NCBI GenBank assembly: GCA_029263075.1
Contig: JAJCYE010000047.1
Span: forward strand, 1-34,782
Origin: Actinomycetes bacterium
Lineage (GTDB): Bacteria; Actinomycetota; CADDZG01; JAHWKV01
Length of the DNA: 34,782 bases
Direction: 5' to 3'
Part shown: in pieces, positions 522 through 23,960 of the stretch
Layout of the letters: each line of letters opens with the position of its first letter
Position numbering within the stretch: the stretch's first letter is position 1
The notes under the pieces: generated by a model
The model's input: only the letters and a program-made list of their open reading frames with translations
The model's database searches: none
What the model was told of the DNA's origin: nothing
Made by a program: the position numbers and the translations under genes

Positions 522-3389
522 TTACTGCGGGGAACTCTGACGCCCGGCCAGGATCGGCTTGAGGAACCGGCCGGTATGGGATCCCTCCGCGGCCGCCACA
601 TCCTCTGGGGTTCCTTCGGCGACGATGGCTCCCCCACCGCTGCCCCCCTCCGGGCCCAGGTCGATGATCCAGTCCGCAGTCTTGATGACATCCAGGTTGT
701 GTTCGATCACCACCACCGAGTTCCCCTTGTCCACCAAGCCGTGCAGGACCTTCAACAGCTTTGAGATGTCCTCGAAATGCAGGCCGGTGGTGGGTTCATC
801 CAGGATGTAGAGCGTCTTGCCCGTGGCCCGCTTCGCCAGTTCGGACGCCAGCTTTACACGTTGGGCCTCGCCGCCGGACAGGGTGGGTGCCGGCTGGCCC
901 ATCTTCACGTAACCCAGTCCCACGTCGACCAGGGTTTCTAGATGCCGGGCGATCCGGGGGATCGGCCGGAACAACTCCAGGGCCTCTTCGATGCTCATCC
1001 CCAATACCTCGGCGATGGTCTTGCCCTTGTAGTGCACGTCCAGGGTGTCCCGGTTGTACCGCCGGCCCTTGCAGACCTCGCAGGTGACGTACATGTCGGG
1101 CAGGAAATACATCTCAATCTTGATCTGACCGTCTCCCTGGCAGTTCTCGCAACGCCCGCCTTTGACGTTGAACGAGAACCTACCCGGCTGATAGCCGCGC
1201 ATCCGGGCCTCCTCGGTCTGGGAGAACAGGGTCCGGATGCTGTCGAAGACGCCGGTGTAGGTGGCCGGGTTTGACCGCGGGGTCCGCCCGATGGGCGACT
1301 GGTCGATGTCGATGACCTTATCTATGGCCTCCAGCCCCTCCACCTTCTTATGGCGTCCCGCCAGATGTTTGGCGTCCCGGAACAGATGCCGGTGGACCGC
1401 CCGGTACAAGATCTCGTTTACCAGGGTGGACTTACCCGACCCCGACACCCCGGTCACCGCGGTGAAAACCCCCAGCGGGAACCGGACATCCAGATCCTTG
1501 AGGTTGTGCTCGTGGGCCCCGACCACGGTCAGGGCCGCCTCTCCCGGGGTCCGGCGCGTCCCGGGGACGTCGATCTTCAACCTTCCCGACAGGTACCCGC
1601 CGGTCAGGGAGCCCTTGGCCTTCAGCAACCCCTTTACCGGTCCGGCGTAGACCACCTCACCGCCGTGCTCCCCCGCCCCCGGACCGATGTCGACCACGTA
1701 GTCGGCCACCGCAATGGTCTCCTCGTCGTGCTCCACAACTATCAGGGTGTTGCCCAGGGCCTTTAGCCTCAACAATGTCTCGATCAGTCGCTTGTTGTCC
1801 CGCTGGTGGAGCCCGATCGAAGGCTCGTCCAGGATGTACAGCACCCCGACCAGCCCGCTGCCGATCTGGGTTGCCAGCCGGATGCGCTGGGCCTCTCCTC
1901 CGGCCAGAGTGGCCGCGGAGCGCTCCACCGACAGGTAGTCCAGCCCGACGTCGATCAAAAAACCCAACCGTTCGTTGATCTCTTTCAGTACCCGGTCGGC
2001 GATGGAGTGATCACGCTCCGAGATTTCCAGTGACCCCAGGAACTTCTCCGCATCCAGGATGGCCATCCGGCTGACCTCCCAGATGTTCTTGTCGTTAACC
2101 AGAACCGCCAGCGCCTCCGGTTTCAGCCGGGCGCCTCCGCACGCCGGGCAGGGAACCTCACGGAAGAACTGTTCTATGCGCTCCCGGGCAAACTCGGACT
2201 CCGTCTCGGTCCGCCGCCGCTCCAGCCAGGGGACCACCCCTTCGAAGGTCGTGTGGTACTGGCGGACCCGGCCGTACCGGTTCTTGTACTTGATGAAGAC
2301 CTGCTCCTCGCCGGTCCCGTGGAAGATGACGTTGCGCTGTTCGTCGGTGAGTTCGCCCCAAGGGGTGTCGACCGAGAAGCCGAACTTTTCGGACACCGCG
2401 TCCATCATGCGGATGAAGTACTCAGCCTTGGCGGTGGACCAGGGCCGGATGGCGCCCGTGGATATCGACAGGTCCTCGTTAGAGACAATGATCGAGGCGT
2501 CGACTTCCAGGTGGGTCCCTAGTCCGTCGCAACGGGGACAGGCGCCGTAGGGCGTATTAAAACTGAAGTTGCGGGGCGCCAGTTCATCGAATGAAAGGCC
2601 GCAGTTCAAGCAGGCAGCGCTTTGTGAGTAGCCGATTGTGCGGTCTTCGTCGACCAGGTCGATCGAGACCAGCCCGTCGGCCAGCCCTAGGGCGGTTTCA
2701 ATGGAGTCGGTCAGGCGGCGCTCGATGCCCTCCTTGAGGACCAACCGGTCGACCACCACCTCGATGTTGTGTTTGTAATAGCGGTCGAGGCGGTGCTTCT
2801 CAGACAGGTCGACGAGATCTCCGTCGACCTTGGCCCGAGCAAATCCCTTCTTCGCCAGGTCCTCCAAGAGGGCTTCGTACTCGCCCTTTTTCCCCTGAAT
2901 CAGCGGCGCCAGAACTTGAAATTTGGTTCCCATCGGCAACTGCATGACCTGGTCCACAATCTGCTCCGGCGTCTGCCGGGCGATGGGCTGCCCGCAGTTG
3001 TAGCAATGCTGTTTGCCTATGCGGGCAAACAGCAGACGCAGGTAGTCGTAGATTTCGGTGATGGTCCCCACCGTCGACCGCGGGTTGCGGGAGGCCGACT
3101 TTTGGTCGATAGAAATGGCCGGCGACAGGCCCTCGATGAAGTCGACCTCGGGCTTTTGCATCTGTCCCAGGAACTGCCGAGCGTAGGACGAGAGGCTCTC
3201 GACGTAGCGCCGTTGTCCCTCGGCATAGATGGTGTCGAACGCCAGTGAGGACTTGCCGGACCCGGAGATCCCGGTAAACACGATCAGGGCGTCGCGCGGC
3301 AACTCAAGGTGGACGTCTTTGAGATTGTGTTCCCGTGCACCACGTATCACCAGGTCGGTGGCCGCCCCGGCCCGCTTCTTAGTGGTCAT
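522..3389 (-). CDS. uvrA: UvrABC system protein A (excinuclease ATPase subunit)
   Basis: [28 protein letters not shown], two ABC signatures ([24 protein letters not shown]), zinc-binding CxxC motifs. Confidence 0.98.
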
Positions 3390-14871: not shown

Positions 14872-15537
14872 ATGTCGGCACAGGTTCCCCAAGGCGCTCA
14901 GGAGTATCTCGAATGTATTTTCGAGATGGAGGAAGAGGGCGCCGTGATTCTTCAGGCCCGCCTCTCCGAAAGGCTTGGGGTCACCCCCGCCACGGTCTCC
15001 CAGGCGGTCAAAAGACTGGCCTCTGAAGGCTTGATCGACATTGAGGACCGCAAAATTTCGCTTACGACCACCGGCGTCGAGGTGGCCACCCCGCTGGTGC
15101 GCAGGCACCGCCTGGCCGAACGGCTCCTGGTCGACATCCTGGAGATCCCCTGGTACCGGGCCCACGAAGAGGCGCATGACTGGGAACACGTCATCTCGCC
15201 CGAGGTAGAGCAGAGGATCCTGGATAAAACCGGCGCCACCACCTGCCCGCACGGTAACCCGATCCCCGGCATGACCCCGCCCTACGACCGCTCCAAACTG
15301 GTCGCGCTGACCGATCTGGCGATCGGCGACTGGGGAACCCTCTGCCTGCTCAATGAGGACGTGGAGCTTGTCACCGGCATCCTGCAGTACTTCCAGGAGC
15401 ACAACCTGATGCCCGGCGCTACGTTGAAGGTTTCCGCCATCGGCCCGGACGGCACGCGCACGCTGTCGGTTGACGGCAAGACCGCCTCGCTCGGCCCCAG
15501 TTTGGCCGACAACCTGTGGATCGAACCCGGCAACTAA
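14872..15537 (+). CDS. DtxR/IdeR/MntR-family metal-dependent transcriptional regulator
   Basis: QARLSERLGVTPATVSQAVKRLASEGLI HTH; RRHRLAERLLVDILEIPWYRAHEEAHDWEHVISPEVEQRI; FGNPIPG-like HGNPIPG; C-terminal FeoA/SH3-like part. Confidence 0.93.
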   Translation: MSAQVPQGAQEYLECIFEMEEEGAVILQARLSERLGVTPATVSQAVKRLASEGLIDIEDRKISLTTTGVEVATPLVRRHRLAERLLVDILEIPWYRAHEEAHDWEHVISPEVEQRILDKTGATTCPHGNPIPGMTPPYDRSKLVALTDLAIGDWGTLCLLNEDVELVTGILQYFQEHNLMPGATLKVSAIGPDGTRTLSVDGKTASLGPSLADNLWIEPGN

Positions 15538-15592
15538 ACCCCACACGCTTTCGCTCTTTTAAGCGCGCTTGTGGCTTGACACAGACCATCCT

Positions 15593-15643
15593 TAAGGTAT
15601 AGCTAATACCCTTAGTTAGCAGAATCTAAGACCAAAGACCTAA
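15593..15643. promoter_or_regulatory. Promoter region with DtxR-like half-sites upstream of the cupredoxin lipoprotein
   Basis: TTGACA at 15576-15581, TATAGC -10-like at 15598-15603, GGTAT-AGCTA-ATACC, CTTAG-N10-CTAAG, AGACCTAA at 15636-15643. Confidence 0.5.
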
Positions 15644-15653
15644 GGGGGATCCA

Positions 15654-16217
15654 CTGTCATCTAACCTGTCCGCGGCCGGACCGCAACCCACCCGACGATC
15701 GCAAACGGTGCGGGTTGCCCTGCGCTTGTCCTCCCTGCTCCTGTTGCTGGCCGCCGGTTGCGGTCAGGACGAAGGCGCGGAGGTCCGCAATATCGGGGAA
15801 AGCGATGTCTCTACCGCCGTCGCATCCGGATCCGGTTCGGGCTCGTCGTCGGGATCCTCCGCCGCCTCCGGTTCAAATTCGGAAGCAGCCCAGGCTCCCG
15901 CCTTCACCGAAGCGGAGGCCACCTCGACCCTCAACTTCAATCTGGTTGATTACGAGTTCGAGGGACCGACCGAGGCGGTGGGGCCCAAGGTCCTGTTCAC
16001 CGCCAAGAACACCGGTACCCAGAGCCACGAACTTGAGATCCTTGACTCCGAGGGCGAAGCCCTGGGAGAGATCGAGGAGTTTGCTCCCGGCGCCAACGCC
16101 GATCCGCTGGCCGTGGAACTGTCGCCCGGCACCTACACACTTCAATGCATCCTCGAGAACGACGAGGGCGAGGTCCACAAGGATCTCGGGATGGTTGCGA
16201 CGCTGACCGTCACCTAG
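15654..16217 (+). CDS. Cupredoxin-like lipoprotein (plastocyanin/azurin-type)
   Basis: Lipobox LLAAGC, Ser/Gly linker, QSHEL and YTLQC-x9-H-x4-M candidate copper ligands; start is either CTG 15654 (AAGGGGG 5 nt upstream) or GTG 15708. Confidence 0.75.
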   Translation: MSSNLSAAGPQPTRRSQTVRVALRLSSLLLLLAAGCGQDEGAEVRNIGESDVSTAVASGSGSGSSSGSSAASGSNSEAAQAPAFTEAEATSTLNFNLVDYEFEGPTEAVGPKVLFTAKNTGTQSHELEILDSEGEALGEIEEFAPGANADPLAVELSPGTYTLQCILENDEGEVHKDLGMVATLTVT

Positions 16218-16237
16218 GCCTGATCGGTCGCCCCCGC

Positions 16238-17593
16238 TTATCCGAATCCGGGCGGGGACTCCTCCACGCCGCGCCCCCGCACGGCGTGGAGGACTACCGC
16301 CAGGCTGAGCAGGATCCAAAGCCCATGGAGGGCCCAGTCGCCGGGATTTAGTGCGACGTAGTCGGGAAGCAGCCGGGACCAAACCCGGTAGATCGGGTTG
16401 CCCGTCTCGTAGAAGTCCACAACCATCGTGCGTCGCCCGCCCCAACCTTCGGCGAACAGCCACCCCAGATTGAAGATCCCGGTGACGCCGAGCGCGGCCA
16501 CCACCCCCAACCGGGGGCGGGTAGAGGCCCAAACCGCAACCGCGATCACCGCGGCCGGGAGCACCACCACCACCTGCCGGCCGGGCCACCACCATCCGTG
16601 CATCGTCAACGCCAGGTAGGTGGCGCTCAGCCACCCGGCCACCAGCGGCAAAGCGACCGCGTCCCAACCGGCAGGGCGCCTACGGACCAGCGCGGCCAAG
16701 GCGGGAACCATAAGCAGCCATGCGGGCTGCCACGCCGCCAGGCCGAACCGGCGGTCCACCACGAGGCCGATCAACCTGCTGGTCCGGGCGGCGAAGTCCG
16801 GTGCTACGCCCATCACGCTGAACTGCCCGGTTCCGGCGAAGTGTTCGCCGGTGGCGTACACGGTCAGGCCCCCGTACCAGGCCAGGTGGGCGGCCAAATA
16901 GGCCACGCCGGCAACCGCCAACGCGCCGGCAACCAACAAAGACTCCCCTCGCCTGCCGGCCCGGTAGAGTCTCCACAGAACAAGCAAAGCCAACACCGCG
17001 GCCACCGGTATGAACTTGGTCCCCAACCAGACCAGCCCCACGGTCCCGGCCACGAACGCCCCCAAGGCCCGTCGGTCCAATGGGCCGGTGACACAGGCGA
17101 TCCCGGCGGTCACGGCAAGAGCGGCGGGCACCTCGGGGTATATCTGGCTCCCGTAGACGGCAAACGGGGCGGATACGGCGAAAACCCCGACCACCAGCGC
17201 AGCCCTGCGAATGGGAACCCCGAACCGCCGTACCGCGGTCCACACCAGCAGAGCCCCAAGCAGCCCGGCGAACAGGGCGAGGGTCAGCTTGGCACCCAGC
17301 CAGCCGCCGGCAGCGGCCCCCGGCACCAGGATCACCGGCAGCAAGGGGTCGTGCGGGCTGACCATCCGGCCGCCCTCCAGGACCTTGGCCTGGGGCTTGA
17401 GCCGCACCTCGTGGAAAGCCCGGTACCGCTGGGCGGCGATCTCGTCCGAGACGTCCAGGGAGCGGTCTTCCGCCAGGCTGAGAGCGGTGAGCAGATATTC
17501 GGGCTCGTCGGCGGTTATCCGGGCTCCGTAGGAACTCCGGACGGGCGCGCCCAGGGCGGCCGCCCCGGCCCCCAGGACGAACACCAAGAACAT
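16238..17593 (-). CDS. Polytopic membrane protein, GT-C/ArnT-PMT-like glycosyltransferase
   Basis: 451 aa, many hydrophobic helices; N-terminal ITADEPEYLLTALSLAEDRSLDVSDE acidic loop typical of GT-C enzymes. Confidence 0.65.
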   Translation of the reverse strand: MFLVFVLGAGAAALGAPVRSSYGARITADEPEYLLTALSLAEDRSLDVSDEIAAQRYRAFHEVRLKPQAKVLEGGRMVSPHDPLLPVILVPGAAAGGWLGAKLTLALFAGLLGALLVWTAVRRFGVPIRRAALVVGVFAVSAPFAVYGSQIYPEVPAALAVTAGIACVTGPLDRRALGAFVAGTVGLVWLGTKFIPVAAVLALLVLWRLYRAGRRGESLLVAGALAVAGVAYLAAHLAWYGGLTVYATGEHFAGTGQFSVMGVAPDFAARTSRLIGLVVDRRFGLAAWQPAWLLMVPALAALVRRRPAGWDAVALPLVAGWLSATYLALTMHGWWWPGRQVVVVLPAAVIAVAVWASTRPRLGVVAALGVTGIFNLGWLFAEGWGGRRTMVVDFYETGNPIYRVWSRLLPDYVALNPGDWALHGLWILLSLAVVLHAVRGRGVEESPPGFG

Positions 17594-17663
17594 GGCGATT
17601 CCCAGCCTGAGCCGGTCGCCGGGGTCTTCCCTGTGTGAGTTGATATGGTTATCCTAAGCATCG

Positions 17664-17683
17664 ATTGTAGGCAGACCTAAGTT
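17664..17683. promoter_or_regulatory. DtxR-like operator in the divergent GT-C/fbpA intergenic region
   Basis: ATTGTAGGCAGACCTAAG; 17668-17680 TAGGCAGACCTAA is 12/13 identical to 22172-22184. Confidence 0.55.
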
Positions 17684-17769
17684 CAGTCCATTTGATCCAC
17701 AACTGCCAAGCGTAGGGGATGACACCTGCTACCCGGTGACGGGCCCCGGCCCGGCGAGGAGGACTTTTT

Positions 17770-18783
17770 TTGATCGGCAAGACGCGGCTGGCTGCGGTCC
17801 TGATCGTCCTGGCGCTGACGACCCTGGCCGCATGTGGCAGTGGATCGTCCGAAGAAACGGTCCGCGTCTATTCGGGCCGTCACTACGGAGAAGAGGAAAC
17901 CTTCAAGAAGTTCTCGGCGGAAACCGGGATCTCGGTGGAGTTCCTTTTTGGTAGCGACGCCGAACTGAGGGAACGAATCGACGCCGAGGGCGAGAACACC
18001 CAGGCGGACGTGTACATGACCGTCGACGCCGGAAACCTCTACCTGGCCGCCGAGGAGGGCATCTTTCAGCCCCTGGACTCCCAGGTGCTCGACGACGCGA
18101 TCCCCGAGAACTACCGGGACCCCGACAACCTGTGGTTCGGACTGGGCGTGCGGGCCCGGACGATCGTCTACAACCCGGACAAGGTCAAGCCGGAAGATTT
18201 GTCGACCTACGAAGATCTCGCCGACCCTAAGTGGAAGGACCGCCTGTGTATGCGGGACTCCTCCAACGTCTACACCCAGTCCATGGTCGCCAGCCTGATC
18301 TCCCATCATGGGTACGAGGGCGCGGTGAAAATCCTCGAAGGATGGGTGGCCAACGACACCGAGATCCTGGGCAGCGACATCCTGGTGCTCCGGACCATCG
18401 AAAAAGGTGGCTGCGACGTGGGGCTGACCAACCACTACTACCTGGCCCGCCTCCTGGAGGACGACCCCGCTTTCGGCGTGAAGCTGTTTTGGGCCAACCC
18501 GCTGGACCGTGGGGTTCACACCAACGTTTCGGGGGCCGGCGTGGTTAAAAACTCCGACAACCCAGATTTGGCCCGCAGGCTGCTGGAGTGGCTGGCCACC
18601 GACGGCCAGACGAGTTTTGTTTCGGGCAACCATGAATACCCCGCCAACCCGGGCGTGGAACCGGACGCCCTGTTGCTCGACAACTTCGGCAACGATTTCA
18701 AGCGCGACCCGCTGGGTGCCGCCGAGTACGGTTCGTTGAACGCTCAGGCGATCAGAGCGATGGACGAGGCCGGCTACGAATAA
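17770..18783 (+). CDS. Fe(III) ABC transporter substrate-binding lipoprotein (FbpA/FutA-like)
   Basis: LTTLAACGS lipobox, VYSGRHYGEEETFKKFSAETGI, GLTNHYYLARL Tyr pair; TTG start with GAGGAGG. Confidence 0.92.
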   Translation: MIGKTRLAAVLIVLALTTLAACGSGSSEETVRVYSGRHYGEEETFKKFSAETGISVEFLFGSDAELRERIDAEGENTQADVYMTVDAGNLYLAAEEGIFQPLDSQVLDDAIPENYRDPDNLWFGLGVRARTIVYNPDKVKPEDLSTYEDLADPKWKDRLCMRDSSNVYTQSMVASLISHHGYEGAVKILEGWVANDTEILGSDILVLRTIEKGGCDVGLTNHYYLARLLEDDPAFGVKLFWANPLDRGVHTNVSGAGVVKNSDNPDLARRLLEWLATDGQTSFVSGNHEYPANPGVEPDALLLDNFGNDFKRDPLGAAEYGSLNAQAIRAMDEAGYE

Positions 18784-18835
18784 GCGGCCGGGGGTCCTCA
18801 ATCCCTCCCAAAAGGGCCGGCGTGGCTGGACCCTT

Positions 18836-20476
18836 CTGGTTACCGGTATCGCGTTGTTGGCCATCGCTCCGGTCGCGGTTATTGCCTGGAGCCTGCTCAC
18901 TCCCAGCGTCGAGGTCTGGCGGCACCTCTGGCAGACCCGCCTTCCCGACATGCTTGTCTCGACGCTCGGGCTTTTGGTGCTTGTCATCCTGGGAACCCTG
19001 GTCCTGGGAGGGGGGTTGGCGTGGCTGGTCTCCGGCTACGACTTCCCCGGCCGCAAGGCCCTCGCCTGGATGCTGGTGCTCCCGCTGGCAATGCCCGGTT
19101 ACATCCTGGGGTTCGTTTTTATGTCGACCTTCGGCTTTACCGGCCCGATCCAGGGTGGCTTGAGGTCTCTGTTCGGACCGGACGTGCCCGTGCCGGAGAT
19201 CCGTTCGGTCTGGGGGGCGGCCCTGGTCTTTTCACTTTCCCTTTACCCCTATGTCTATCTGCTCGCCCGGGCCGCTATGCGGGAGCAGGCCACCGCCAGT
19301 TACGAGGTTGCCCGGAGCCTGGGTTACAGCCATCTGAAGGCGGCGCGGAAGGTGATATTCCCGCTGGCCCGGCCGTCGCTCATCGCCGGCCTCACGCTGG
19401 TGACGCTGGAAACCCTTACCGACTTCGCCACCGTCATCTACTTCAACGTCCAGACGGTGTCGGTCGGCGTCTACCGGGTGTGGAAGGGCATGTTCGACCG
19501 GGACGCAGCCAGTGAACTGGCCTCTCTGGTTTTGATGTTCGCCCTAGCCTTGTTGCTCATCGAACGCACCATGCGGGGACGGGCTCGATACACCCAGCAA
19601 GGCGGAGGAAGCAGGCAGCTACCTTCCAAGAAGCTCTACGGCGCCCGGGGTTGGGCGGCAACCGGCGCCTGCATCGGAGTACTCACGCTGGCATTCTTCG
19701 CACCGGTGTTACAACTGGCCTGGTGGGCCGCCGGACAACTGGCCGGCGGAAAGGGAGCCGGTGACTCCAACTTCTTGAGCTACCTGACCAACAGCGCCGT
19801 GCTGGCGATAGGGGCAGCCGGCCTGGTGGCAGTGGTGGCGATCGGCGTCACCAACGCCCGACGGTTCTCCGGCACCCGGTATGTGAAGTCCATGTCGCAG
19901 ATGTCCACCGCCGGCTACGCCCTGCCGGGGCCGGTTATCGCCATCGGGGTCCTGCTGGTACTCGCCGGCGTGGACCGGGGGCTGGAGGCGATGGGGATCT
20001 CCATCCCCGGGCTGCTGGTCACCGGGTCGCTGGCCGGGGTCGTTTACGCCTACGTGGTCCGGTTTATGGCGCTCGGGGTGAACGGCATCGACGCCAGCCT
20101 GCAGAAGGTGCCGGAGGAGTTGACCCTGACCGCCCGGAGTCTTGGCGCGACACCGGCCCGGGTGATGCGCAAAATTCACCTTCCGCTCACCAAAACCGGG
20201 GTGGCGGTAGCGTTGTTGCTGGTGGGCATAGACGCCTTGAAGGAACTCCCGATGGTGCTGCTGCTCCGCCCCTTCGGGTTCGACACGCTGCCGGTCTGGG
20301 TCTGGCAGCTTGCCGCCGAGTCCCGATGGGAGTCGGCAGCGCTCCCATCGCTTACGATTATCGCCGCCTCGCTGGTGCCGGTGGCGCTGCTGACCCGAAG
20401 CCTCAGGGGATCGGACTCCGGCGTCGAACTGCTCCCGGATTCCGGTAAAGGAACCAAAGAACTGGCCCGGGTTTGA
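18836..20476 (+). CDS. Fe(III) ABC transporter permease, two fused permease domains (FbpB-like)
   Basis: Two EAA-type loops (YEVARSLGYSHLKAARKVIFPLARPSLIAG; LTLTARSLGATPARVMRKIHLPLTKTG); true start unresolved. Confidence 0.88.
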   Translation: MVTGIALLAIAPVAVIAWSLLTPSVEVWRHLWQTRLPDMLVSTLGLLVLVILGTLVLGGGLAWLVSGYDFPGRKALAWMLVLPLAMPGYILGFVFMSTFGFTGPIQGGLRSLFGPDVPVPEIRSVWGAALVFSLSLYPYVYLLARAAMREQATASYEVARSLGYSHLKAARKVIFPLARPSLIAGLTLVTLETLTDFATVIYFNVQTVSVGVYRVWKGMFDRDAASELASLVLMFALALLLIERTMRGRARYTQQGGGSRQLPSKKLYGARGWAATGACIGVLTLAFFAPVLQLAWWAAGQLAGGKGAGDSNFLSYLTNSAVLAIGAAGLVAVVAIGVTNARRFSGTRYVKSMSQMSTAGYALPGPVIAIGVLLVLAGVDRGLEAMGISIPGLLVTGSLAGVVYAYVVRFMALGVNGIDASLQKVPEELTLTARSLGATPARVMRKIHLPLTKTGVAVALLLVGIDALKELPMVLLLRPFGFDTLPVWVWQLAAESRWESAALPSLTIIAASLVPVALLTRSLRGSDSGVELLPDSGKGTKELARV

Positions 20477-21582
20477 ACAAAGGACTGCTTTTGCAACAAA
20501 CAGCGCCGCCACAAGACTCGGGCCCGGCCACCCCGGCCGTGGAGGTGCGCGGGGTCACCCGCCGGTTCGGGACGGTCACCGCGGTGGACGACGTGAGCAT
20601 CGAACTGCACTCCGGCGAGTTCCTTACGCTGGTCGGACCCAGTGGGTGCGGCAAGTCAACCCTTCTCCGCATGATCGCCGGGTTGATGGAGCCGGACTCC
20701 GGGGAGATCCTGCTCGCAGGACAGGTAGTCTCCTCCCCCGGCCTCTGGGTCCCCCCCGAAAAGCGAGCGGTCGGGCTGGTGTTTCAAGAAAACACCCTCT
20801 TCCCCCACCTCACGGTGGCCGGCAACATAGGTTTCGGGCTCGGCCGGCGTTCCAAGTCCGACACCGCCGCTCGGGTGGCCGAGGTACTCGAACTGGTGGA
20901 ACTGCCCGGGTACGGCACCCGTTTCCCGCACGAACTGTCGGGCGGTGAGAGGCAGAGGGTGGCGCTGGCCCGGGCGATCGCCCCGGAGCCGACCGTGCTG
21001 CTGTTGGACGAGCCGTTCGCCAACCTGGACCCCAACCTGCGGGCGCAGGTGCGGGCCCACACGGTGGATATCCTCCGGCGGGCCAAGGCGTCCGCCCTCT
21101 TCGTTACCCACGACCAGCAGGAGGCGATGTCGGTTGGGGACCGGGTGGCGGTTATGAACCAGGGCCGGGTGGAGCAGGTCGGGACCCCCAAGAGCGTTTT
21201 CCACCTCCCGCAGAGCCACTTTGTCGCATCGAGCCTGGGTGAGGCGTACTTCCTCCCGGCAACCTACTCGGGGAACGGGTCGCTGCATACCGAGGCGGGC
21301 CCCTGCGACTGCCCGCACGGCATGTCGCAAACCGAGATGGAGATCATGGTCCGGCCCCACGACGTGGCTTTCGTGGTGGACCCCGGAGGGGGCTCGGTGG
21401 TGACCTCGGTGGAGTTCCTCGGCGCGTTCCTTCTGTATCAGGTCGAACTACCCTCGGGCCGGCGCCTGCGGTGCCTGATGCCCCACACCGCGGAGGTGGA
21501 TACCGGGACCCGGGTCCGGGTGCACCTGGAGCACGGGCACGTCCCGGTGGTGCTGCCGGTTTCAACCAGAGGCCAGGCCTAG
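20473..21582 (+). CDS. Fe(III) ABC transporter ATP-binding protein (FbpC-like)
   Basis: GPSGCGKSTLLRMIAG, LSGGERQRVALARAI, LLLDEPFANLDP, FVTHDQQEAMS; TTG at 20473 or 20491. Confidence 0.93.
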   Translation: MNKGLLLQQTAPPQDSGPATPAVEVRGVTRRFGTVTAVDDVSIELHSGEFLTLVGPSGCGKSTLLRMIAGLMEPDSGEILLAGQVVSSPGLWVPPEKRAVGLVFQENTLFPHLTVAGNIGFGLGRRSKSDTAARVAEVLELVELPGYGTRFPHELSGGERQRVALARAIAPEPTVLLLDEPFANLDPNLRAQVRAHTVDILRRAKASALFVTHDQQEAMSVGDRVAVMNQGRVEQVGTPKSVFHLPQSHFVASSLGEAYFLPATYSGNGSLHTEAGPCDCPHGMSQTEMEIMVRPHDVAFVVDPGGGSVVTSVEFLGAFLLYQVELPSGRRLRCLMPHTAEVDTGTRVRVHLEHGHVPVVLPVSTRGQA

Positions 21583-21687
21583 ATCCGCCCTCCAAACTAT
21601 CTTTTGCGGTCGGCCCCGCGAGCTGCTCAGGCCAACCGGTAAACTTCGGGACCGGACCATCGTTGTCGACGGGACAGGACTTGTGCA

Positions 21688-22116
21688 GTGACGATTGAAG
21701 AAGAGCAACAAAAAGGGCTGGCCCTGTGGGCGGCCGACTGCGCCGAGCGGGCCCTGGCGGTCTTCGAACAGACCCATCCCAAAGATTTCAGGCCCCGCAA
21801 AGCGGTTGAGGCGGGCCGAGCGTGGGCCCGCGGCGACATCCCGATGTCGGCCGCCCGGGGGGCCTCATCCAAGGCCAACGCGGCAGCCCGGGAGGCCGAG
21901 GAGGACAGCCCTGCCCGGGAAGCCGCCCGTGCGGCCGGGCATGCAGCTGCGGCCGCACACAACCCCGGCCATACGCTCCACGCCGCCGCTTATGCGGTCC
22001 TTGCCCTCTGCGGAAGCGACGCCGAGGCGGCCGAACAGGAGCGGTTGTGGCAGTCGGGGCACCTTCCCCAAAACCTCCATCCCCTGGTGTACCCCGAGGA
22101 CGACGCGACCGAATAA
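21688..22116 (+). CDS. Imm-5-like putative immunity-family protein
   Basis: KGLALWAADCAERALAVFEQTHPKDFRPRKAVEAGRAWARG...AAREAEEDSPAREAARAAGHAAAAAHNPGHTLHAAAYAVLAL matches the remembered Imm-5-like domain pattern; GTG start. Confidence 0.7.
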   Translation: MTIEEEQQKGLALWAADCAERALAVFEQTHPKDFRPRKAVEAGRAWARGDIPMSAARGASSKANAAAREAEEDSPAREAARAAGHAAAAAHNPGHTLHAAAYAVLALCGSDAEAAEQERLWQSGHLPQNLHPLVYPEDDATE

Positions 22117-22147
22117 GTTCCCCGGCCGGCTTCTATCCGGAGCGTAC

Positions 22148-22184
22148 TTAGGCTAGGCTTCCTAGCTATGTTAGGTAGACCTAA
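22148..22184. promoter_or_regulatory. Two DtxR/IdeR-like boxes upstream of the flippase-glycosyltransferase gene
   Basis: TTAGGCTAGGCTTCCTAG (22148-22165; first 12 bases match TTAGGTTAGGCT at 11/12) and TTAGGT-AG-ACCTAA (22171-22184). Confidence 0.65.
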
Positions 22185-22205: not shown

Positions 22206-23960
22206 GTGATATTCACCCGACTGGCCAAGATGTTCCGGCTGCACATCCCGATGTGGCTGGCCTGGACCGCAGGCCTCGGTTTCACCGCGGTCAGCGCCTG
22301 GTTCATGCGCTTCAGCTTCGATCCGTCTTCTATGGCCACCACCTGGGACGCGGTAAAAGGGGCGCCGCTGGCCGTTTTGGCCGTGACGGCTGTCTACTTC
22401 GCCGCATTTGCCCTGCGGGCCATGGTTTGGCGCAGCGTGATCCCCCGGCTGAGTTTCGGACAGGCATTGGCGGCCATTCACCTGGCCATCGCCGGTAATC
22501 ACCTCCTCCCGCTCCGCCTTGGGGAAGCCCTCCGGGTGACCAGCGTGGTCAGGCGCACCCGGGTTCCTCTCCCCGACGCCACCGCCTCCACCATCACCCT
22601 CCGGGCCGCCGACGCCCTGGCGCTGGCCGGCCTGCTCCTGGTTCTCGGCCCCGGCCTGGCGCTTCCCCGGTTGGCCGGGGCCTTCGGCGTGCTTGGCCTG
22701 TCGCTCCTGGCGATCTTGGGCGGGGGGCTGTTTTGGCTCAGAAGGTTGCGCCGGGCAGGATCCCAGGGGCTAAGGATGCCCGGATCCTTCGCCGCGCTGG
22801 GATCCTTGACTGCCTGGCTGTTGGAGTCGGTCGTCATCTGGCAGGCCGCCCATTGGGCCGGAATTCCTATTAGTCCCACCGAAGCAGTGCTGGTGACCGC
22901 CGCCACGATCTTTTCGCAGGTACTTGCGGTGGCGCCGGGAGGCTTCGGCACCTACGAGGCGGCGGCATCCGGGATGCTGGTTCTCCTGGGCGGCCGGCCG
23001 GGTCCCGCCCTCGCAGCAGCCCTGACGGCGCACGCCCTCAAGACCGCGTACTCGCTCGCCGCCGGGGGCGTGGCGGCGTTTGCCCCGGCTCCCGGATTGT
23101 TCGGCAGGCTCCGCCTCCCCTCCCCGGCCCCCCTCCGACCAGCCGAGCCCCCTCCGGGCCCTGGGTCGCCGATAGTCTTCTTTCTCCCCGCCCGCAATGA
23201 GGAGGCCAACGTTGCGCAGGTGATCGCCAGGATGCCGGCGCAGGTCTGCGGGCACCCGCTGGAGTGTGTGGTCATCGACGACGGGTCCACCGACCGCACC
23301 GCCGAGGCCGCCGAGGCGGCGGGGGCTCGGGTGGTAGCCCTCACCGCAACCCACGGTTTGGGCGCCGGGGTACGGCGAGGCCTCGCCGAAGGGGTGGGCA
23401 GGGGTGCCGCGGCGGTGGCCTTCTGCGACGCCGACGGGGAGTACGACCCGGCCGAACTTGAAGCCCTGGTGGCGCCGATTTTGGCCGGCCGGTTGGACTA
23501 TGTCGCAGGTTCCCGGTTTTCCGGCGGCAGTAGGCGGATGAAGCCGCACCGGCTCGCCGGCAACCGCTTTCTGTCGGCAATCCTGTCGGTAATCGCCCGC
23601 CGCCGGATCCGGGACGGCCAAAGTGGATTCCGGGTCCTGTCCCACCACGCCGCGGCCGCCGCCGAACTGATCCACGACTACAACTACGCGCAGATCATCA
23701 CCCTGGATCTCCTCGGCAAAGGATTCAGGTACGGCGAGGTGCCTATCAGCTACAGCTACCGCACCCGGGGAAAGACCTTCGTGAGACTGCTCCCCTATTT
23801 AAAGGCCGTGGTACCGGCTGTCCTCCGTGAGATCAACGGCGCTCAGTCCTCAACCACATGGGCGGCGAACGACTCGGCCGAAGCCGACCACGCCGACGCG
23901 TCGAAGCCGCCGTCCGGACCGAGCGCCGCGGCGGCAGCCCAGCCCATCTCCAGCGCATGA
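22206..23960 (+). CDS. Fusion: LPG-synthase/AglD-type flippase TM domain plus DPM1-like GT2 glycosyltransferase
   Basis: N-terminal polytopic domain with NHLLPLRLGEALR and APGGFGTYEAAASG; C-terminal FFLPARNEEANVAQVIARMP...VVIDDGSTDRT...DADGEYDPAEL...GSRFSGG. Confidence 0.88.
   Translation: MIFTRLAKMFRLHIPMWLAWTAGLGFTAVSAWFMRFSFDPSSMATTWDAVKGAPLAVLAVTAVYFAAFALRAMVWRSVIPRLSFGQALAAIHLAIAGNHLLPLRLGEALRVTSVVRRTRVPLPDATASTITLRAADALALAGLLLVLGPGLALPRLAGAFGVLGLSLLAILGGGLFWLRRLRRAGSQGLRMPGSFAALGSLTAWLLESVVIWQAAHWAGIPISPTEAVLVTAATIFSQVLAVAPGGFGTYEAAASGMLVLLGGRPGPALAAALTAHALKTAYSLAAGGVAAFAPAPGLFGRLRLPSPAPLRPAEPPPGPGSPIVFFLPARNEEANVAQVIARMPAQVCGHPLECVVIDDGSTDRTAEAAEAAGARVVALTATHGLGAGVRRGLAEGVGRGAAAVAFCDADGEYDPAELEALVAPILAGRLDYVAGSRFSGGSRRMKPHRLAGNRFLSAILSVIARRRIRDGQSGFRVLSHHAAAAAELIHDYNYAQIITLDLLGKGFRYGEVPISYSYRTRGKTFVRLLPYLKAVVPAVLREINGAQSSTTWAANDSAEADHADASKPPSGPSAAAAAQPISSA

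Follow-up and report, generated by a model that had tools for sequence, protein, structure and literature searches.

Paired 14-bp boxes on a strict 23-bp spacing as a candidate iron-regulon operator in an Actinomycetes lineage

The window considered here, meaning the whole 34,782-nucleotide stretch that was analysed (contig JAJCYE010000047.1, positions 1 to 34,782, of GenBank assembly GCA_029263075.1, an Actinomycetes bacterium), carries an island of genes for iron uptake, glycan handling and metalloregulation in which three promoters share a palindromic DNA element. The conserved unit is a 14-bp box, TTAGG-N4-CCTAA (TTAGGNNNNCCTAA), which occurs twice per promoter with the two starts exactly 23 bp apart, and which probably serves as the operator of an iron regulon controlled by a repressor of the DtxR/IdeR type.

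The island and its three paired boxes

In order along the forward coordinate, the island holds: the gene for a DtxR/IdeR-like iron-dependent repressor of 221 residues (14872 to 15537, forward strand; PF01325, PF02742 and PF04023), presumed to bind the boxes; a cupredoxin-like lipoprotein gene (15654 to 16217, forward) with weak Cupredoxin_1 and EfeO-like matches; and a membrane glycosyltransferase gene (16238 to 17593, reverse) divergent from fbpA, which had been named GT-C type in the original prediction and has no Pfam match, its orthologue being conserved in G008 and G010 as well as within the genus. These are followed by fbpA (17770 to 18783, forward), encoding a FutA-type Fe(III)-binding lipoprotein whose nearest relatives of solved structure are the Fe(3+) substrate-binding proteins 7li0, 6g7n and 2pt1 (E 1e-76 to 1e-84), by fbpB (18854 to 20476, forward), a fused two-domain permease of the ATP-binding cassette (ABC) type (PF00528), by fbpC (20473 to 21582, forward), the ABC ATPase (PF00005 and TOBE_2), and by a gene (22206 to 23960, forward) that fuses an LPG-synthase-TM flippase domain (PF03706) to a GT2 glycosyltransferase (PF00535). 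The repressor gene adjoins polA, as it also does in G001, L019/G008 and L020. Between fbpC and the flippase operator sits a gene for an Imm-5-like putative immunity protein (21688-22116; PF21805, E 2.6e-35), which G003 and G004 lack at this place.

The original prediction had taken a shorter word, AGACCTAA, as the motif of a putative regulon of three island genes. Its letters are correct: the word lies at 15636-15643, 17673-17680 and 22177-22184, its only occurrences in the window (three copies against 0.32 expected, a count reached in 1 of 100 shuffles), and the longer form TAGG(C/T)AGACCTAA is present at 17668 and 22172. As a unit, however, it was ruled out by phylogenetic footprinting, for which the GT-C/fbpA, flippase-GT2 and cupredoxin-lipoprotein promoters were aligned, where available, from the congeners G003, G004 and G005 plus G002. 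What is conserved is the 14-bp palindrome, and AGACCTAA is merely a right half-site; at the fbpA and flippase promoters it forms the right half of box 2. A 15-bp pattern, TTAGGN5CCTAA, was also tried and discarded as noise, its matches being fewer than in its control.

Upstream of the cupredoxin lipoprotein, box 1 (TAAGGTATAGCTAA, 15593 to 15606) has 2 mismatches in 10 and reads TTAGGTATAGCTAA in three congeners, with box 2 (TTAGCAGAATCTAA, 15616 to 15629) beginning 23 bp further on (tandem model E 1.2e-4). In the GT-C/fbpA intergenic region the same offset separates box 1 (TATGGTTATCCTAA, 17644 to 17657; TCAGG(T/C)TATCCTAA in three congeners) from box 2 (GTAGGCAGACCTAA, 17667 to 17680; model E 2.3e-5), and this pair, with 3 mismatches in 20, lies 51-87 bp upstream of the GT-C start. 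At the flippase-GT2 promoter the right half of box 1 (TTAGGCTAGGCTTC, 22148 to 22161) is degenerate, the site reading TTAGG(C/T)TAGGCTTC in four genomes, and box 2, again 23 bp away (TTAGGTAGACCTAA, 22171 to 22184; E 2.5e-5), is perfect; this layout recurs in G003-G005, G008 and G010.

The remaining copy of the word, at 15636 to 15643 on the forward strand, is judged fortuitous and not an operator site, since it is unconserved, the same position reading GATCAAAGG, GATCAAAGG and GACCAAAGG in G003, G004 and G005, and merges with the cupredoxin gene's ribosome-binding site, AAGGGGG. That gene probably starts at a CTG codon (15654-15656), given that AAGGGGG-atcca-CTG is in frame and conserved in four genomes and that ATG, GTG and TTG are unusable at that place; the first start of the ATG/GTG/TTG type is at 15708. 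In G005 dtxR and the cupredoxin gene are separated by a methyltransferase-like gene (L126 ~1479-2130, G005:C38), and the box pair remains with the cupredoxin gene despite the insertion.

The 23-bp spacing and the reach of the regulon

The tandem pairs far exceed what chance would produce. Allowing up to 4 mismatches in 20, the window contains three pairs, all at offset 23 and none at any other offset from 14 to 60, whilst 300 dinucleotide-preserving shuffles gave a mean of 0.06 pairs over those offsets and never three at one offset. Ten island loci together contain 18 pairs with offset 23, against 0-3 at each other offset between 14 and 40. The tandem pattern at up to 3 mismatches in 20 gave 2, 2, 3, 3, 2 and 1 matches in the family's six genomes, every one of them at the promoter of an island gene or, in G001, at that of its separate fbp operon, and the reversed pattern gave none. 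A sequence model of the box pair, applied to this 2.4-Mb genome beside the patterns, gave exactly three sites, namely the three island promoters; as all three were in the training set, this speaks for the specificity of the model and is not a discovery. The one site that the model found outside its training set is in G002, where it overlaps or immediately precedes the beginning of a gene resembling nucleotide-sugar epimerases. Single imperfect boxes are uninformative, because at up to one mismatch the genome yields 16 matches and the reversed control 49.

Beyond the family, a survey of 24 genomes of the class found further tandem matches in G007 (three), G008, G010 and G016, with none for the reversed control, and fbpA promoters outside the genus carry a 23-bp pair in 11 of 20 cases at a looser threshold and in 8 of 20 at a stricter one, for a shuffled expectation of 0.005. 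In G006 and G007 a third box extends the array to positions 0, 23 and 46; in family f3 a perfect box often stands 14-17 bp further upstream at a variable distance, with the downstream pair staying at 23 bp. With a degenerate pattern applied phylum-wide, paired boxes outside the class turn up at different distances, from 17 to 45 bp, and in G118 and G272 such a pair stands in front of an fbpABC operon; the 23-bp rule is therefore characteristic of this class, though one of the 11 fbpA promoters with the pair belongs to G025, which is of another class. Of the outcomes that the original prediction held would tell against it, neither a lack of enrichment nor a lack of conservation was found: the box is kept in orthologous promoters across genus, family and class. 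Its remark that the half-site spacing departs from the canonical 19-bp box was likewise borne out by the 23-bp offset, and the canonical box (TTAGGTTAGSCTAACCTAA, up to 3 mismatches) has no match in the six family genomes and one or two in some other families of the class.

Half sites of the form TTAGG-N4-CCTAA stand in the promoters of iron genes well outside the island. Tandem boxes precede genes for an FhuF-like protein (G016) and a ZIP-type transporter (G007), as well as the cupredoxin lipoprotein and flippase-GT2 genes of G008 and G010. Perfect boxes that stand singly are found in front of the sufB and sufD genes and, in G019 and G021, in front of fbpA. In the genome under study, contig C135 (9820-29909; L216, L217) carries a siderophore-type non-ribosomal peptide synthetase cluster comprising MbtH, a lysine/ornithine monooxygenase, two Peripla_BP_2 proteins of the Fe-siderophore-binding type, a phosphopantetheinyl transferase and an open reading frame of 5,095 residues judged to be a synthetase from its start and context. 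Two promoter regions of the cluster each have boxes 46 bp (2x23) apart, and they are the sole matches of the 46-bp pattern in this genome (control 0). The regulon therefore reaches beyond the island, so that of the three-gene regulon first proposed the boxes at all three promoters stand and the restriction to the island falls.

Two further sites deserve mention. A perfect single box at G000:C34:12651-12664 (L187:4652), which precedes a lipoprotein gene (465 residues) by 69 bp and a sugar-kinase-like gene by 84 bp, marks a possible extra member of the regulon. A tandem box of the flippase type (L182:3196-3232, G002:C301) either overlaps the beginning of a gene resembling nucleotide-sugar epimerases or stands immediately in front of it, and at L019 an epimerase-like gene is divergent from flippase-GT2; such neighbours hint at an iron-linked glycan pathway.

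The regulator, its proposed action and the alternatives

The product of gene 14872 has the DtxR/IdeR architecture, with an N-terminal winged helix-turn-helix, a metal-binding and dimerisation domain and a FeoA/SH3-like domain, and its best relatives in the PDB are IdeR of Mycobacterium tuberculosis and DtxR; against NF053665, the NCBIfam equivalog for actinobacterial DtxR, it scores 144.7 bits, below the cut-off of 290. It is the genome's IdeR-like paralogue and the likely binder of the boxes. The ancillary metal site is kept (His79, Glu83, His98 and, in the SH3 domain, Glu172), Gln175 is replaced by Glu as in most aligned homologues, and Glu105 and His106 of the primary site are retained. Sulfur ligands at positions 10 and 102 (Met10 and Cys102) favour Fe2+ in IdeR, and MntR has Asp or Asn and Glu there (PMC10317159); with Glu at 10 and His at 102, the product of 14872 lacks the MntR pair and fits neither pattern. 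That it senses iron is inferred from the genes served and not from the ligands. In the L019/G008 orthologue the primary site reads Glu, Glu, Glu, Lys (His106 to Lys, ...AEDWEKVMT...), and metal sensing may differ again in that family, with operators that keep the 23-bp spacing.

Given that the box equals the DtxR/IdeR consensus TTAGGNNNNCCTAA (PMC8464063), is conserved and stands before iron and Fe-S genes, the idea of a DtxR-type regulon with a variant operator is upheld. We put at about 0.8 the probability that the motif is an iron-regulon operator whose paired boxes are bound, for repression, by an IdeR-like protein, most likely that encoded by 14872. One dimer would occupy each 14-bp box. 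A sigma-70 consensus scanner called no promoter at these sites, and promoter positions were read from the alignment: at the cupredoxin gene a putative promoter on the forward strand combines TTGACA (15576-15581; TTGACA/T is conserved in four genomes) with TATAGC (15598-15603, inside box 1), and the presumed -10 hexamers under box 1 in the three promoters are TATAGC, TATCCT and TAGGCT. Box 1 would then overlie the putative -10 region, and box 2 the start region that follows it downstream, and in repressed IdeR genes the box likewise falls on the -10 or start site (PMC10317159). With ample metal, most likely Fe2+, a dimer on each box, side by side with the other, would aid its neighbour's binding and exclude RNA polymerase from the cupredoxin lipoprotein gene, the GT-C/fbpABC pair and flippase-GT2; under iron scarcity the genes would be expressed. 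Blocking of RNA polymerase at high iron is the most economical interpretation, because box 1 covers the presumed -10. As 23 bp is about 2.2 turns of B-DNA, neighbouring dimers would lie on similar faces of the helix, and dimer-dimer contact, as in the MntR array, or bridging by the SH3 domain, a speculation already made for IdeR (PMC8464063), would explain why the spacing is fixed despite varying boxes.

Several observations weigh against this account: individual boxes are imperfect, by up to 3 mismatches in 10; the promoter of 14872 itself has no box; the Fe2+ specificity of its product is not assured, because Met10 and Cys102 are replaced by Glu and His; and the genome has two Fur-family genes, one of them beside the siderophore cluster. 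The last point, together with a second DtxR-family protein (L132, G000:C96, ~780-1530, minus strand) that is MntR-like with Asp and Glu ligands, lends some substance to the idea that the boxes serve another metalloregulator and that 14872 is a mere neighbour. We regard this as improbable, as the box matches the DtxR/IdeR consensus and is presumably, with no scan for Fur boxes made, not of the Fur type. The MntR-like paralogue, besides its MntR-type ligands, has a palindrome of its own just upstream, TTTAGATGCGTCTAAA, a candidate for a separate manganese operator, and the genes served by the boxes are those for Fe(III), siderophore, FhuF and Suf functions and not manganese genes.

A regulator bound to the pair might instead switch genes on at high metal. 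Repressed IdeR genes usually have one box and activated genes several (PMC10317159), as at bfrB of M. tuberculosis, and MntR activates mneP of Bacillus subtilis from a four-site array (PMC11275975), so that the multiplicity of boxes favours activation. Yet the targets here are uptake genes, expected to be off at high iron, and in each of the three promoters box 1 overlies the presumed -10, an occluding position; activation thus appears highly improbable. Chance or inheritance, in which AT-rich promoters yield TTAGG-like words that are kept by relatedness, could draw on the modest enrichment of AGACCTAA alone and on its one fortuitous copy in three. It is barely credible for three unrelated promoters that share an exact 23-bp spacing, with a reversed-motif control of zero in 24 genomes and a spacing that persists in other families and in G025, which belongs to another class. 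The preferred reading, an operator for IdeR-like repression, can be widened to the lineage, with somewhat better than even odds in our judgement: DtxR-family control would act there through single-dimer half sites arrayed on a strict 23-bp lattice (two or three boxes, sometimes with a weak middle site) in place of an overlapping 19-bp two-dimer box, would be exerted by a repressor devoid of the primary-site sulfur ligands, and would place the flippase-GT2 and GT-C glycan genes under iron control as well.

Significance and comparison with known systems

The spacing rule offers a highly specific means of finding iron regulons among uncultured actinobacteria, reversed controls having given no false matches, and it ties an uncharacterised set of flippase and glycosyltransferase genes to iron. 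The closest precedent for the box itself is Saccharopolyspora erythraea, in which a single IdeR dimer binds a 14-bp half site in vitro (PMC8464063; reviewed in PMC10317159). The sequence of that half site, TTAGGNNNNCCTAA, is the same as here, but it was an isolated site of unknown role in the nuo promoter, whereas at the iron promoters described here the boxes come two or three together, on a lattice of strictly 23 bp. Its discoverers left for investigation both what the half site does and whether other species have it (PMC8464063, PMC10317159). In the present lineage half sites appear as the normal operator, in fixed-phase pairs, and the question is therefore directly testable on defined DNAs of 37 and 60 bp.

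The canonical 19-bp DtxR/IdeR box TTAGGTTAGSCTAACCTAA shares with these operators its CCTAA repeats and its protein family, and differs in that its two dimers overlap at a 5-bp offset rather than standing 23 bp apart. In the MntR arrays of B. subtilis mneP and mneS and of Escherichia coli mntS, DtxR-family dimers also lie side by side on weak tandem sites, with cooperativity through dimer-dimer contacts (PMC11275975). Those arrays, however, consist of 18-bp sites 1 bp apart (a 19-bp period), respond to manganese, have another site sequence and, at mneP, activate; the 23-bp period, iron genes and IdeR-type sequence seen here set the present operators outside that type. The bfrB promoter of M. 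tuberculosis resembles them in carrying several IdeR boxes (four; cited through PMC10317159), though its boxes lie upstream of the promoter and activate a storage gene, and the targets here are uptake genes. A 23-bp half-site array was not found described in the open-access literature, although an earlier account elsewhere is possible. Set beside these systems, the half site is already known and the strict 23-bp array is the new layout.

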